Assembly (NCBI GenBank): GCA_021813585.1
Contig: JAKAJV010000092.1
Span: forward strand, 1 to 51,292
DNA: 51,292 nt
Direction of reading: 5' to 3'
Source of the DNA: Bacteroidota bacterium
Lineage (GTDB): Bacteria > Bacteroidota > Ignavibacteria > Ignavibacteriales > Ignavibacteriaceae
The position numbers and the translations under genes were made by a program. Shown here piece after piece: positions 6,126 to 28,773 of this stretch. A model generated the notes under the pieces. That model was given only the letters and a program-made list of their open reading frames with translations, was not told the origin of the DNA and ran no database searches. How positions within the stretch are numbered: the first letter of the stretch is position 1; each line of letters starts with the position of its first letter.

Positions 6126-6611
6126 ATGAGATTACAAGGTTCTCAAAAAAGGAATGACAGACTAATCAAAGAAAAGCGGAAAGATACTTATCGAACATAC
6201 ACAGCAGCGCCGGAGCCTTCTCTATGTAAAAATTGCGGTGCGGTATATATGAACGGACATTGGACTTGGAATGAAGTTAAAGACGGAACCTATAAAACCC
6301 TATGCCCGGCTTGTAAGCGTATGGAAGATAAATACCCCGCTGGTTATATAGAAATTAAAGGAGAATTTTACAATGAACATACGAATGAAATTTCTAATCT
6401 TATAAGGAACACCGAGAAGCTTGAAAAAAACGAACGACCTTTAGAGAGAATCATGTCGATGAAAATAGAAAGAGGCCGTGCAATTGTTACAACTACCGGG
6501 ATACACATTGCGCGGCGTATTGGAGAGGCTCTCAACAGATCCTACCAGGGACTCTTTTCATTTCAGTACGGAGACGGCGATAAGAGCATTAGAGTACAGT
6601 GGGAACGATGA
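6126..6611 (+). CDS. BCAM0308-family zinc-ribbon protein
   Basis: A 161-residue soluble protein resembling the uncharacterised BCAM0308 family. Residues 34-37 (CKNC) and 60-63 (CPAC) form a four-cysteine zinc-ribbon-like pair, with the GHWTW segment between them. The C-terminal half contains a basic/aliphatic region (MKIERGRAIVTTTGIHIARRIG) of ferredoxin-like or KH-like flavour, which hints at nucleic-acid or ribosome contact but does not prove it. The start has a strong GGAGGAGCT ribosome binding site. It is a single-gene unit closed by a good terminator at 6635. Molecular function is unknown. Confidence 0.75.
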   Translation: MRLQGSQKRNDRLIKEKRKDTYRTYTAAPEPSLCKNCGAVYMNGHWTWNEVKDGTYKTLCPACKRMEDKYPAGYIEIKGEFYNEHTNEISNLIRNTEKLEKNERPLERIMSMKIERGRAIVTTTGIHIARRIGEALNRSYQGLFSFQYGDGDKSIRVQWER

Positions 6612-6634
6612 GAGATAGCTTCTTTATATTTTAA

Positions 6635-6660
6635 GGGAGGCCTGATTGACCTCCCTTTTT
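6635..6660 (+). terminator. Rho-independent terminator
   Basis: GGGAGG (6635-6640), a 9-base loop, CCTCCC (6650-6655) and a run of T from 6656, 24 bases after the BCAM0308-family stop. Confidence 0.85.
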
Positions 6661-6787
6661 TATTTTTAAAATGTTGCTTAAAAATTAAAATTCAATTACT
6701 TTTTACATAGCATTAAAAATAATAATAACAGACCGGCAGAGATAAGTACTAATTAAACAATCCATTCAACAAAAGCTTCAATTAAGA

Positions 6788-9700
6788 ATGAAGATAGCTT
6801 TCTCTATTTTTAAGCGGATTAAAAATTTTTTCAGTTATTATTTTTTAATTACATTCATTTTATTCCGTGCTTATGTTCCCGCAGAAGGAATTACCGGCCA
6901 GCCAGCTATGCTGCAGAATAATTCACTCCACTCAACCCGAACGAGCGTTACATGTTTTTTAGCTAAAGATTTTCCAACTGTTGATGCACCTGTAATTGAT
7001 CCGGGCGAGCTGAAGGAAGCTCTCGCCGGGTTCAGCGTAAAATATTTAACAAGCGTTGATGAAATAAATCAAAATCTCGATGTAAAAAATTTTAGAGCAT
7101 TGGTTCTGCCTTACGGCAGCGCCTTCCCGATAGATGCATGGCAGAGTATTTACAAGTTTATAGCTTCCGGCGGAAATCTTATTATGCTCGGTGGTTATCC
7201 TTTCCATCAGCCTGTAATTTGGAAAGCGGAAAATAATAATAACGGCAAATGGATTTTGGGAACGCCGCAGCCGACCTTTGCACACGAATTATTAATCGGT
7301 CCAGCAGATATGATTGATCTTAAATCTTCTCCCTTTTATTATAAAGATGCGAAAGTGGCTCCTGTAAATAAATCTGATTTTGATGTAAAAGATTTTCCGA
7401 TGCCCACAAAAGTATATGAGCTTACCGTAAGGTTTACTACAAAAAAAGATTTTCCGGATGAAGACGGAACCTCCGGTCCGAGAGAGGCTGTATTAAGACC
7501 ATTAATCCACATTGTAAACGAAGACGGATTGCCGGTTGCTTGCCCGCTGCTCGAAATAGACAGGCTGCAGGGAAGCGATGCCGGCGGAAGATGGATACTT
7601 GAACCGAGCGATGCGAAGTTAAGTCCGGCAATAATAAAAGCGTGCGTCGAAAGAGTATTGGAAGGCGCTTCAAACTTAACCGCCGTACCTGAACATGCAT
7701 CGGTTAACGACGGAGAAATTCCGGTGCTTAGAATAAATCAATTGTGCCCCGCTGCGGGAAAAGAAATGAAGCCGGATAAAATTGAAGTTACTGTAGCAGA
7801 TGCCAAAGACAATCAGGTATTCACCGGTACGGTTTCACTTAACGGGTATAATGAATTTCAAACCGGCGAAATTCAAATTAAAACAAAGAAAGCATTGCCG
7901 CCCGGATTTTATAAAGCGGCAGTAAAAAATTTAACTTCATCTTTGCATCCTAATACAGTTACTACCGGATTTTGGATTAAGGATGTTAGGCTGCTGGATT
8001 CGGGACCAAAGCTATCGGTTTCACAAGATTGGATATTAAGGGATGGAAAAGTCTTCCCGATAGTAGGTACTACTTACATGGCGTCTGATGTTGATAGAAA
8101 ATTTTTATTCGAACCGAATCCTTATTTGTGGGATAAAGATTTTGCATTGATGGAAAAGCAGGGAGTTAATTTTATCCGCACAGGCATCTGGACTGCATGG
8201 AAGAGAATAATGCTCGATCAGGGTGCGGCGGACGAAGGCGTTATGCACGCGCTAGACGCATTTGTTCAGACTGCAGCAAGGCACAACATAATTGTCTGCT
8301 TTAATTTGTTTGCATTCACTCCTCCGCTCAACGGCGGAAGTAATCCTTATCTCGATCCGAGGGCGCTCGACTGGCAGAAGGCTTTTGTTACGCTTATTGC
8401 TTCAAGGTATAAAGACTCAGGATGGATAAACTACGATCTGATAAACGAGCCTTCATATTCGCCAACTGACATGCTCTGGAATAATCTGCCGATTCATGAT
8501 CCTTATGAGGAAGCTGCCTGGAATGATTGGGTTGAAAAAAATCCCAAAGAAGATAAAGACAAAATTCTAGACGAATGGCGCGACGGAACAGAAAGCATAA
8601 ATTCTACTCCCAACGGCAGCGATCTTTCTTATGCACGCGTGCGTGGAAACCGTTTGCCGAGGAAAGGGCTGGACTTTGAGCGCTTCACTCAGGATGTTGT
8701 TGCTAACTGGGCTGATACTCTTAACAAGGTTATCAAATCATCTGCAAGTAATACTCTCGTTACTCTCGGTCAGGATGAAGGCGGCACTACTACACGTCCT
8801 TCGCAGCAGTATTTTTATACTGCCGTAGATTATACTTCGATGCACACCTGGTGGAACAATGACGACCTGCTTTGGGACGGCGCATTTACAAAGGTGCCGG
8901 AAAAGCCCAGCTTAATTTCTGAAACGGGAATTATGAGACTGGAAAATATCGACGGCGAGCCGTGGATTACTCCAGCCGATGCTTATAACCTGCTCGAAAG
9001 AAAATTTGCTTACGCATTTGCAGGGCGCAGCGCGGGCGTTCTGGAATGGGCGTGGAATATAAATCCCTACATGCCGATAGATAACGAAGCGGTAATCGGT
9101 TTCTTTAGACCGGACGGCACTGCGAAAATGGAAATAAAAGTCCTGAAGGAATTTTCATCGTTCTTCAAAAAGGTGCAGCCCTACCTAGGCGATTATGAAA
9201 AGAGCGATGTAATACTTGTAATCCCGCATTCATTAATTTTTTCAAATGAACCTAACAGCTCAGCAGGCACTCAAAGGATAATACATATACTTGCCGATAA
9301 TTTCGGTATTGTACCGGTATTGTTATCGGAATACAAATTAACGAAAGAGCGGCTGGCAGGTGCAAAGCTGGTTATCGTTCCCGATCCCGGAATACTTTAC
9401 GATTCGGCTTCATCAGTACTTTACGATGCATCTTTGCACGGAACAAAGATTCTTATTACAGGCGCGGTTTGGGGAAATGAGTACGGACAGGCTACCGCAC
9501 AGTTAAAAAAACTTGGACTGGGATACCCAGCAAAGCCGGTTAGCCAGTATGAGTATACAAACTGGAGCTTAACGAAAAATCACAGCGGAGATTATGTTAC
9601 ATTCGATCATGGACAGAGTAATTATTTGATGAAGAGTGAATCGCCGCCGTTGCTTTCTCTTAAAGGAAATATTTTACACGAGCCTCTGCCGCTTGAACTG

Positions 9701-22435: not shown

Positions 22436-22978
22436 ATGAAAAGACTGGTAAGCATAGAAGAGTACAATGATATTTTCTCCGAGTACAGGGATACACCTAT
22501 CGGGTTATTGCTGGAATACCACAACCTAAACCGTCCGCCGGAAACATATTCCAGCGCAAAGCTTTTGATAGGTATGTGCATGGATAACCGCAAGCACCTG
22601 TACATACCGGACAACTTCGCATACATTATCAGGGCGGGCGGCGCAAATTTAAGATACAGCGAGTTCAAGGTATCTTACGCTATCGCAGTGGGAAATGTAA
22701 ATTACATCGCACTTATCGGACACAACGACTGCGGAATGGTTAATCTGATTGCACGCAAAGAGCAATTTATAAACGGACTGGTTAATAAAGCGGGATGGGA
22801 CAGGAACTGGGCGGAAGAGCACTTTATGCACTTCGCCCCAATGTTCGAGATAGGAAATGAAGTTGATTTTGTAGTAAGTGAAGCGAAAAGGCTCAGGTTA
22901 AGATATCCCAAGATAACTGTGGCCCCCTTGATTTATAAAGTAGACGACAGCCGGCTTTATTTAATAAACGAAAGATAA
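22436..22978 (+). CDS. Beta-carbonic anhydrase-like protein
   Basis: A 180-residue beta-class carbonic anhydrase relative: zinc ligand and dyad C48-M-D50-N-R52, the RAGGAN turn (residues 66-71), and H96-N-D-C99-G-M carrying the remaining zinc ligands. All three zinc ligands and the Asp/Arg dyad are present, so reversible CO2 hydration is plausible. The ATG lies 37 bases after the sigma factor stop on the same strand, so co-transcription is possible. Later residues (VDFVVSEAKRLRLRYP) fit the family's C-terminal half. Confidence 0.88.
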   Translation: MKRLVSIEEYNDIFSEYRDTPIGLLLEYHNLNRPPETYSSAKLLIGMCMDNRKHLYIPDNFAYIIRAGGANLRYSEFKVSYAIAVGNVNYIALIGHNDCGMVNLIARKEQFINGLVNKAGWDRNWAEEHFMHFAPMFEIGNEVDFVVSEAKRLRLRYPKITVAPLIYKVDDSRLYLINER

Positions 22979-25401: not shown

Positions 25402-25632
25402 ATGTATACAACCGAAGCATTTAAAGTCGAATCTGTTGAGGAAAGCGGAACGATTCCGAGGATGGGAGAAATAAATTACTGCGGCCACAGAAGAACCGTC
25501 TGCCTTGGGCTGCTGGAAAATATTAATGCCGGAGATTATGTAATTGTGCATAAGGGATTTGCTTTATGCAAGCTTGATGTTGATTCGGCCAGAAAAACCC
25601 TTGATGAAATTACCGATTTAATCAGACAATAA
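25402..25632 (+). CDS. HypC-like hydrogenase chaperone homologue lacking Cys2
   Basis: A 76-residue HypC/HybG-fold protein. GDYVIVHKGFAL (44-55), the KLD and the TLDEI tail fit HypC well, and the N-terminus aligns without gaps: M-Y-T-T-E-A-F-K-V against canonical M-C-L-A-x-P-G-K-V. The invariant Cys2, which in HypC carries the Fe(CN)2CO intermediate, is Tyr2, and the usual Pro6 is Ala6. Cysteines exist at 27, 34 and 56 but not at the active place. The start is backed by GGAAGAG; no upstream alternative start would supply an MC. It is followed 18 bases later by a HypD homologue with matching losses, so a non-canonical role is likely. Confidence 0.82.
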   Translation: MYTTEAFKVESVEESGTIPRMGEINYCGHRRTVCLGLLENINAGDYVIVHKGFALCKLDVDSARKTLDEITDLIRQ

Positions 25633-25650
25633 ATTAAACGTCGTTTTGTT

Positions 25651-26739
25651 ATGCGCAGCATCGATAAGCTAAAAGATATAGCTCTGGCCGGAAGGCTTGC
25701 AAAAAATATTTTAAATTTTTCTTCGAAGGAAATAAAAATATTTGCAGCGGGAGAAGGCCTGGCGTATTCAATTATTAAAAACAAGCTGGGAGAAATGTTA
25801 AATCCGTCGGTGTCTTTTTTATTCGGACCCGGATGCCCTGCCTGCGTAACATCCGTAGAAGCAATTGATAAAGCCATATGCATTGCATCTATGAAAGACA
25901 TCATATTTATATTGCAGGAAGAATATCTCAACATACCCGGATCGAAGCAAAGCCTAAGCGGATTAAGAGAGAAGAGCAATTCAATAAGAATTATCGAGTC
26001 GCCCTTGGAAGCGGTAACTATTGCTGGCCGGGAGCCTGATAAAAGAATAGTTTTTTTAGCGGCAGGATTTGAGGATGCGGCTGCAGAAAATTTATACGCT
26101 CTATCGCTGGCAAAAAAGAAAGATTTAAAAAATTTTTTCATGTTAAACTCTCACTTAAAATTCGGTGCATTCCTAACCGGAATTCTGCCCCAGAATAATT
26201 ATTTAGTTAACGGCATCCTCCTTTCAGGCAGAATATTTTCAGTAACGGGATATAATGAATATAAAGACCTGCCGGGCAGATTAAAAATCCCAGTCGTTAT
26301 TACCGGATGTGAGCCTCTGGATATATTACAAAGTGTTTATTTAATTGCAAAGCAGATAAAGGAAGGCAGGTGCGAGACGGAGAACCAATTTACCAGGGGC
26401 GCGCCCGCGGGCGGTAATAAAGCTGCCTTGAACCTTATTTCGGACTATTTTGAAGCCGCTAATAAAAATTGGAGAAGCTTCGGCAATATAGAAAACGGGG
26501 GCTACAAGTTTAAAAAAGAATTCTATCGCTACGACGCTGAAAAGAATTTTCCGATTAAATATACTATGCCGGAAGAATCGGTTTTTTGCGAGGCGAAAAA
26601 AGTATTAAAAGGACAGATAGTTCCTTACAAGTGTTCTGCATATTCAAAGTTGTGTTCCCCGCCTCATGCGTTGGGCGCGCCGATGGCTGCAAAAGACGGC
26701 ATTTGCAGTCTTTTTTTCAAATTAAAAAGAAATAATTAA
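25651..26739 (+). CDS. HypD-like protein lacking the CGTH active-site motif
   Basis: A full-length (362 aa) homologue of HypD, the scaffold that with HypC builds Fe(CN)2CO for NiFe-hydrogenases. Conserved: GPGCPACV (Cys62, Cys65), SPLEAVTIA and VFLAAGFEDAA (for SPLDAL and VFFAVGFETTA), VVITGCEPLDILQ, ENQF and the C-terminal cysteines 313, 328, 335 and 352. Lost: the CGTH motif reads A33-G-E-G36, the second Cys of CxCG is Ala315, and the GxCMVS cysteine is Pro344. So one catalytic cysteine is absent while the cluster region is partly kept. No HypE, HypF or hydrogenase subunit is in the window. Confidence 0.86.
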   Translation: MRSIDKLKDIALAGRLAKNILNFSSKEIKIFAAGEGLAYSIIKNKLGEMLNPSVSFLFGPGCPACVTSVEAIDKAICIASMKDIIFILQEEYLNIPGSKQSLSGLREKSNSIRIIESPLEAVTIAGREPDKRIVFLAAGFEDAAAENLYALSLAKKKDLKNFFMLNSHLKFGAFLTGILPQNNYLVNGILLSGRIFSVTGYNEYKDLPGRLKIPVVITGCEPLDILQSVYLIAKQIKEGRCETENQFTRGAPAGGNKAALNLISDYFEAANKNWRSFGNIENGGYKFKKEFYRYDAEKNFPIKYTMPEESVFCEAKKVLKGQIVPYKCSAYSKLCSPPHALGAPMAAKDGICSLFFKLKRNN

Positions 26740-26928: not shown

Positions 26929-28773
26929 ATGATGGAAAAGCATTTAAGTTTTTCGAGTTATATAAAATCCATTAATGCCAACCCGCTTCCGATATGGATA
27001 ATACGATTCGACGATATAAGTTTCTATTCGATTAATTCTTCGGCCGAAAAAGAATTTTTATACAGCGAAGATGAATTGCTTGGGAAGTCCGTTATGGAAA
27101 TCTGTCCCTACTTCAATAAAAATGAACTCCATACTATTACTCACTCGAAGTCGGGCGGCAGAATTGTTACTATCATCAGAAGAAAAGACGGGAAAGAGCA
27201 GACTGCCGAATTAAATGTTTCCAGTTTTTTTGAAGATGGAGAATATTTCTTCTACATTATAATTACACCGCTTTCCCTATTGCATGCCAGTCCGGATAAG
27301 CTGGTGCTCACCTCCTTCTATTACCAGCAGTCGGTTATGGTAAACTTTGTACCGGTTATTATTGCCGATAAGAATTCCCAAAAAATTTTGCAGGTAAACG
27401 AAGGCGCGCTCCGTTTGTACGGATATAGCAGAGAAGATTTTTTGAACCTCTGCTTTTACCACCTATACCCTTCTACCGATATAGAAATCGCTGACAAGAT
27501 TTTCAAGGTTGTAAAAGAAGATAGATATAACAGGTTCGAGGCCCGCCATATAGGCGGCGGGAATAAAATTATAGAAGTCGAATTATATATTCAGCCGGTT
27601 AAGAGCTATAACAGCCACCTGCTTATGATTGTTATAATCGACATCTCCGAAAAGAAACTTGCGCTTAAGCTTCTTGAGGAAAGCTTAAACAACTATAAAC
27701 TTATTGCCGGTAATTCTACGGACTTGATTTTAAGGCATAAAATAAGCGGACAAATTACTTACGCCTCGCCAGCATCGTTAAGACTGCTGGGATATAAACC
27801 GGGCGAGCTTACTCTGGAAGACGTTTACAATTTTATTCATCCCGTAGATGCCGGACGCATAAAGAACGGGATAGCAAACATGAAAGAATCGGTTCACTAT
27901 AAGGCAAGGTACCGGATATTAAATTCTAAAGGAAAATATATTTGGTTTGAAAGCACCGCTAAGTTGCTGCCCGATTATTCAAATACCGAAGGTGAAAAGG
28001 AGATTATTTCCGTCTCTAGAGACATTACCGATAGAGTGGAAATTGAGAACCAGCTTATCGACGCAAATAAAAAAGCCGATGAGATAAGCAGGCTTAAGGA
28101 TATCATACTTACCAATATGAGCCACGAAATGCGCACTCCTTTGCAAAGCATTCTAGGATATACCGAGATCATCAAAGAAAAGATTAAAGACGTTGAACTC
28201 CTTGCTGAACTCGATATAGTTTACCAGGACGGCAGAAGGTTGCTGAGAATGATCAACCTTTTCCTCAATCTTGTTTACCTGGAAGCCAAGAACTTCATAC
28301 CCCATTTTGAAGCCTATAATATTTCAGACATCGTTAAAAATGTTGCCGAATCTTTTATCTGCGCCGCGGAACAGAGGCAGCTCTATCTAAAAATAAATCT
28401 TGATGACGAGCCGGTAGTTGTGTATACAGATAAAGTTTTGCTGAGGGATGTCCTTGATAACATAATAGATAATGCGGTAAAGTTTACAAAGGAAGGCGGC
28501 GTTGATATAATTACCTTTAAGGAAAAGAAAGCTGACCTGGTTATGGCGGTTGTGCAAATAAAAGATACCGGCATCGGCATTCAAAAGGATAAGGAGCGCT
28601 TGTTGTTCCAGGAATTCCGGCAGATAAGCGAGGGTCTCGACAGGAAATTCGACGGAATTGGAATGGGCCTGACTATTTCGAAAAAGATTATAGAGAGATT
28701 AAACGGACAAATGTTTATCAAGAGCGGGCCGGACGGAACAACAGTTAGTATATATTTCCCGATAAAAGAATAA
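26929..28773 (+). CDS. Soluble sensor histidine kinase with three PAS domains
   Basis: A 614-residue cytoplasmic hybrid-free kinase: PAS domains at about 10-110, 130-235 and 245-375 (the last with a PAC segment, RYRILNSKGKYIWFES), HisKA with H-box NMSHEMRTPLQSILGY (phospho-acceptor His399), and HATPase_c with N-box DNIIDNAVKFT, G1 DTGIGI and G2 GIGMGLTISKK. No membrane segment, no receiver domain and no response regulator gene nearby, so it is an orphan kinase. The start may be ATG 26929 or, at a better distance from AAGGAA, ATG 26932. It follows the HypC/HypD-like pair by 189 bases on the same strand. Confidence 0.94.
   Translation: MMEKHLSFSSYIKSINANPLPIWIIRFDDISFYSINSSAEKEFLYSEDELLGKSVMEICPYFNKNELHTITHSKSGGRIVTIIRRKDGKEQTAELNVSSFFEDGEYFFYIIITPLSLLHASPDKLVLTSFYYQQSVMVNFVPVIIADKNSQKILQVNEGALRLYGYSREDFLNLCFYHLYPSTDIEIADKIFKVVKEDRYNRFEARHIGGGNKIIEVELYIQPVKSYNSHLLMIVIIDISEKKLALKLLEESLNNYKLIAGNSTDLILRHKISGQITYASPASLRLLGYKPGELTLEDVYNFIHPVDAGRIKNGIANMKESVHYKARYRILNSKGKYIWFESTAKLLPDYSNTEGEKEIISVSRDITDRVEIENQLIDANKKADEISRLKDIILTNMSHEMRTPLQSILGYTEIIKEKIKDVELLAELDIVYQDGRRLLRMINLFLNLVYLEAKNFIPHFEAYNISDIVKNVAESFICAAEQRQLYLKINLDDEPVVVYTDKVLLRDVLDNIIDNAVKFTKEGGVDIITFKEKKADLVMAVVQIKDTGIGIQKDKERLLFQEFRQISEGLDRKFDGIGMGLTISKKIIERLNGQMFIKSGPDGTTVSIYFPIKE

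Follow-up and report, generated by a model that had tools for sequence, protein, structure and literature searches.

What can a HypC-HypD pair do when the cysteines that would hold its iron are absent from both proteins? In E. coli numbering, the position proposed for the Fe(CN)2CO group lies between C41 of HypD and C2 of HypC (PMC9900092, PMC12130793). The window analyzed here, a whole stretch of 51,292 nucleotides, carries such a pair in the hypC-hypD order on the + strand, with both frames open and a gap of 18 bases between them:

25402-25632, + strand: HypC-like protein, 76 aa, with cysteines C27, C34, and C56
25651-26739, + strand: HypD-like protein, 362 aa, with a full-length HypD fold

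The original prediction had read the two genes as full-length homologues of HypC and HypD, and both the profile matches and the open frames confirmed it. The HypC-like protein scored 53.5 bits against Pfam HupF_HypC (PF01455; cut-off 28.5) and 45.8 bits against NCBIfam hypC_hupF (TIGR00074), slightly below the cut-off of 48. The HypD-like protein scored over both of its cut-offs, with 306 bits against Pfam HypD (PF01924; cut-off 25), covering residues 15-357, and 286.2 bits against NCBIfam hypD (TIGR00075; cut-off 192.8). The five best Foldseek matches to its structural model (pLDDT 92.6, pTM 0.90) were chains of T. kodakarensis HypD, with TM scores of 0.90-0.91 by query length (0.91 for 3vys_B). 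T. kodakarensis HypD was also the sole solved HypD sequence that matched, in an alignment spanning residues 41-357. The HypD-like protein is thus a member of the HypD family, as curated cut-offs and whole-length fold agree, and the predicted model shows that it would still fold as HypD. In a read-through HypC-HypD fusion model (pTM 0.79), the HypC part was strand-rich and of low confidence, with a pLDDT of mostly 54-76. A 201-codon open frame lies antisense to hypC-hypD (25536-26141, - strand) and is probably incidental to the coding frame.

The sites of the two iron-binding cysteines were located at the following codons:

25405-25407, + strand: HypC Y2, at the site of the Fe-binding Cys2
25750-25752, + strand: HypD G34, at the site of the Fe-binding Cys (E. 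coli C41, T. kodakarensis C38)

Cys2 was present in 99% of 165 canonical HypC rows, and the HypC-like protein has Tyr at this position, as originally predicted. Its N-terminal MCLxxPG motif is gone, and the core residues G28, G44, H50, and G52 are retained. An alternative Met-Cys start was absent from the upstream in-frame stretch, where stops lie 9 and 11 codons upstream of the ATG. The HypD comparisons were made against 180 canonical sequences, the set left after rows that were short, duplicated, or lacking GPGCP had been removed. All 180 have Cys at the C41 site, at which the HypD-like protein has Gly. G34 was assigned to this site by its 28-residue spacing to GPGC, the same spacing being found in 57/57 canonical HypDs read, and a scan pattern that leaves residue 41 free returned CGx[HQ] in 117/117 HypD loci. 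The predicted exchange of CGTH for AGEG held as far as the loss of the catalytic cysteine is concerned (G34), although the motif was one residue off, with GEGLA lying opposite CGGQT/CGTHT. The matched loss of the Fe-holding cysteines on HypC and HypD was supported: both residues required of a functional Fe(CN)2CO scaffold, HypD C41 and HypC Cys2, are replaced (G34, Y2). With the two holding cysteines absent, as the alignment shows, the HypD of the window would be unable to hold Fe(CN)2CO.

Changes were also found at other conserved positions of the HypD-like protein, two of which are given here:

25921-25923, + strand: codon of E91, at the site of the conserved Asp (E. coli D98)
26308-26310, + strand: codon of C220, a Cys within the GFEP motif (which reads GCEP), where canonical HypDs have Phe

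D98 of E. coli HypD is described as helping HypE to deliver cyanide (PMC12130793). The Fe(CN)2CO scaffold requires this Asp, and E91 is a conservative change at its site. Among the motifs, GFETT reads GFEDA, GH reads GR, and GFEP reads GCEP; the Phe of GFEP occurs in 180/180 canonical HypDs. The Ala in GPGCPA occurs in 0/180 and is found in the HypDs of the window and of one other genome of the order, G071. Overall, 80 residues of the HypD-like protein are rare among canonical HypDs, and 21/57 positions conserved at at least 95% differ. At the positions conserved at at least 98%, it keeps 27/44, against 44/44 in L004, L007, and L009 and 42-44 of 44 in four very divergent canonical HypDs. Judged from these residues, the losses beyond the iron site would also suit relaxed constraint. 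The losses were not significantly concentrated in the cleft loops when each loop was taken as the first five residues that follow a strand (p = 0.24); a post hoc definition, widened and leaving out the GPGC loop, gave p = 0.0013 and was discounted. The CxC and GxCMVS cysteines, which had been reported as partly lost, reflect lineage variation and are not specific to the window protein: 77/180 canonical HypDs have the second CxC cysteine, and 75/180 have the one in GxCMVS.

We then asked whether the host genome (G000; 4.54 Mb, 142 contigs, 99.95% complete) holds the partners of a classical pathway, searching for HypC, HypD, HypE, HypF, and the NiFe large subunit. Neither a second HypD nor a second HypC was found besides this pair. 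HypE and HypF gave nothing over cut-off, with best scores of 50.2 bits (cut-off 251.6) and 31 bits (cut-off 466.1), respectively, and the NiFe large subunit had no match at E 0.001. The scaffold requires HypE, HypF, and the large subunit in one genome, and this search found none of them in G000. The check for a canonical hyp set or hydrogenase in the same genome, proposed with the original prediction, thus returned only the pair itself; therefore, classical Fe(CN)2CO assembly by the window pair is very unlikely. The original prediction had also named close relatives with Cys2 and CGTH in this gene pair as evidence against it. This applies in part: G005 and G006, which belong to the same genus, carry canonical HypC/HypD, but with HypF and hydrogenase matches, whereas G000 has only this pair. 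We regard it as scarcely probable that the pair remains a maturation system for some [NiFe]-type enzyme, divergent or unassembled, with partners that were missed through an assembly gap or as distant homologues. The division into contigs would leave room for this, as would the restriction of the search to HypC, HypD, HypE, HypF, and the NiFe large subunit; however, the completeness of the genome, the three independent searches (HypE, HypF, large subunit) with nothing over cut-off, and the loss of both Fe-holding cysteines argue against it.

The second set of HypD cysteines gave a different picture from the iron site. C69/C72 of E. coli HypD are described as a thiol-disulfide pair (PMC9900092, PMC12130793), which together with the cluster drives thiol-disulfide and ATPase activity (PMC9900092). 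The [4Fe-4S] ligands are given as C323, C336, C343, and C360 in E. coli and as C323, C338, C345, and C362 in T. kodakarensis (PMC9900092). Their counterparts in the window are:

25834-25845, + strand: C62-P-A-C65, the retained redox disulfide pair (E. coli C69/C72)
26587-26589, + strand: codon of C313, the first [4Fe-4S] ligand (T. kodakarensis C323)
26632-26706, + strand: C328, C335, and C352, the remaining three [4Fe-4S] ligands (T. kodakarensis C338, C345, and C362)

In the alignment with T. kodakarensis HypD (numbering of PMC9900092), the electron-path cysteines are retained 6/6, so that the pair and the four ligands required of the scaffold are present at the residue level; taken alone, this retention reaches only p = 0.075. 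The same alignment bore out the claim that GPGCPAC and four C-terminal cysteines were kept. Compared with the HypC-HypD scaffold of E. coli and T. kodakarensis (3vyr/3vys), the window pair is alike in gene order, whole-length homology, fold (TM 0.91), the C69/C72 pair, the four [4Fe-4S] ligands, and a counterpart of HypC H51. It is unlike the scaffold in having no C41 and no HypC Cys2, Glu for D98, GFEDA, and GCEP, and its genome differs from the scaffold hosts in that no HypE, HypF, or NiFe large subunit was found.

The reading that we prefer, and to which we give about an even chance, is that this HypCD pair was left after the hydrogenase pathway was lost and has been retained in the role of a [4Fe-4S]/dithiol redox module, an activity that we infer. 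The ancestor of the window genes would be an ordinary Bacteroidota-type HypC-HypD pair. The host lineage would have lost the remaining [NiFe] maturation set and the hydrogenase, which are absent from the genome as searched, and the pair would have stayed under selection and taken a new role. HypD should carry a [4Fe-4S] cluster on C313, C328, C335, and C352, where the ligands are in place, and C62/C65 would act as a redox-active dithiol-disulfide. Electrons would pass from the cluster to C62/C65, forming a putative iron-sulfur-fed thiol-disulfide relay. These thiols may act on a partner or small molecule in the iron-free cleft, either reducing it or sensing its redox state, and the HypC-like protein is a candidate adaptor subunit above the cleft. 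The original prediction had proposed another task, either iron-sulfur/redox or regulatory. Its departure from classical assembly stood, and a redox task is favored over a merely regulatory one because the six electron-path cysteines are kept, although this falls short of a demonstration.

We extended the comparison to the order, in which HypD was found in 30/164 genomes. When the motifs of all 30 were read, 28 had CGGQT or CGSQT with GPGCPVC, and the exceptions were the window and G071. From 16 HypD-bearing genomes tested, HypF was over cut-off in 14 and missing solely in G000 and G071, which are also the only two with altered catalytic cysteines. Loss of HypF/hydrogenase thus tracks altered HypD catalytic cysteines (2/2 such genomes versus 0/14 others tested). 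The NiFe large subunit matched in 13/16, several of these matches being partial and weak, and was absent from G000, G071, and G033 (87% complete). Several genomes of the class (G100, G110, G119, G128, G131, G137, and others) had two HypD matches each; in G131, the second copy (L054) belongs to the CGGHT/GSCMVS type.

The G071 HypD (L018/L191; L191 at 6128-7219, - strand) has CGDQT and GPGCPAG and is 63% identical to canonical HypDs; six positions conserved at at least 95% are lost, namely C72 and five others. Neither HypF nor the NiFe large subunit was found in G071, no hyp genes lie beside its HypD, and no HypC was present within the 15 kb read. The neighbors encode an arginine deiminase and an HMA-domain metal P-type ATPase. 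The two orphans are alike in the missing HypF and NiFe large subunit, in their altered catalytic motifs, and in the Ala of GPGCPA. In contrast, the G071 HypD keeps C41 and has lost C72, whereas the window HypD has lost the C41-site Cys and keeps C65. Five of the six positions lost in G071 are also lost in the window HypD (p = 0.022), a pattern that would fit a common origin as well as a relaxation of constraint at sites that had become free.

These shared losses bear on a rather unlikely alternative, in which the pair has been eroding slowly since the pathway was lost and does nothing important, still folding since damage to folding proteins is costly. The lack of the pathway in G000 (HypE, HypF, NiFe large subunit, and other HypC/HypD not found) agrees with such erosion, and the G071 orphan could represent a less advanced state, as if the same sites had been freed first. 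We compared the window HypD with a neutral simulation, in which three present-day canonical genes (not the true ancestor) were randomly mutated to 41% identity in 400 runs each. In these runs, 0/400 frames stayed open for each of the three genes (mean 13.5-13.9 stops), whereas the window HypD has no stop and no internal indel relative to canonical L004 or L009. The mean BLOSUM62 of its replacements against L004, L007, and L009 was -0.05 to -0.15, compared with -0.67 to -0.70 (sd 0.11-0.12) in the neutral runs, and the replacements are conservative at about 38% identity to relatives of the order. The HypD-like gene is not decaying neutrally, and the simulation rules out that it decayed freely along most of its branch, recent relaxation aside. 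Further points against erosion are the retention of HypC and HypD side by side and a codon use that matches other genes (index values of 0.82 and 0.78 for the pair versus 0.71-0.82 across the 27 genes of the window, at the high end). The description of both frames as intact, adjacent, and constrained was supported by the simulation and by the absence of internal indels.

It is quite improbable that HypD C220 and HypC C27/C56 replace C41/C2 as a relocated metal site, with which the pair would go on building or carrying a metal group for a client that is not a [NiFe] hydrogenase. C220 stands at the otherwise invariant GFEP Phe, and C27 and C56 occur in 0/167 canonical HypCs. In the model, C220 comes after strand 215-218, at a strand end as in other cleft motifs, and the retained HypC H50 is the counterpart of H51, described as a neighbor of C2 (PMC9002611). 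However, with 80 rare residues in the HypD-like protein, a few new cysteines are possible by chance, and HypE and HypF, the cyanide makers, were not found. The same thiols enter a wider and improbable proposal, namely that the HypCD electron core is a portable machine, recruited here as a [4Fe-4S]-dependent thiol-disulfide enzyme in which the re-sited C220 and C27/C56 would hold a new substrate or metal group.

If this portable-machine proposal is true, HypCD would have a function outside [NiFe] hydrogenases. The iron scaffold, redox relay, and ATPase activity of E. coli HypCD are hard to separate by mutation, because hydrogenase activity disappears with the loss of any one of them. In the window pair, the iron holders have gone in the course of evolution and the relay has stayed; therefore, the pair would offer a direct test of the relay by itself. 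For annotation, a HypD match by itself does not equal hydrogenase maturation.

A Y2/AGEG clade of its own, a check proposed with the original prediction, gained no second member, and a Y2/G34 clade was not supported, as scans of class, phylum, order, plasmids, phages, and contigs gave no close relative. Among the matches listed, identity was at most 41% in the class sample (391 genomes), apart from the window, and at most 40% in the phylum sample (395 genomes, overlapping the class sample). In the order (164 genomes), only the HypDs of G071 and the window scored below 483 bits, two contig-edge fragments excepted. Plasmid matches (122 records) were all below 60% identity, and two phage records had HypD relatives, at 31.5% and 29.7% identity. 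The former, MT836795.1 (5121-6158, - strand), is an unannotated 8.7-kb Bacteriophage sp. record from human faecal samples and may be bacterial DNA. Peptide-pattern scans of genome and viral contigs found no relative; they need eight exact residues and, by estimate, miss relatives below about 70% identity. A literature search of titles and abstracts gave no HypCD pair without its iron cysteines.

In the broad tree (115 rows), the end branch of the window HypD was 3.56, against a median of 0.35, and the protein fell in a starred 18-row set, all from its order except one from its class. A Bacteroidota-type HypD origin of the window protein is likely. The broad quick tree joined the window and G071 HypDs with an SH-aLRT of 91, unstarred, whereas a careful tree of the order (42 rows) did not join them and left the placement of the window open, its bootstrap not having settled. 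The two HypDs have three rare residues in common, no more than the window protein has with four canonical rows. A common origin of the two orphans was thus left unproven, as the trees disagree and the shared rare residues show no excess.

A horizontal origin of the pair was rejected, codon use and GC being native. The gene neighborhood gave no functional clue, and a tie to the downstream PAS histidine kinase (26929-28773) was also rejected: orthologues with 50-61% identity occur in G001, G007, G010, and G012, where HypD had no match and the window neighbors were not found around them. Upstream of the pair, at 22436-22978 on the + strand, lies a gene for a small carbonic-anhydrase-like protein, with 24.3 bits against Pfam Pro_CA, marginally below the cut-off of 25.7.
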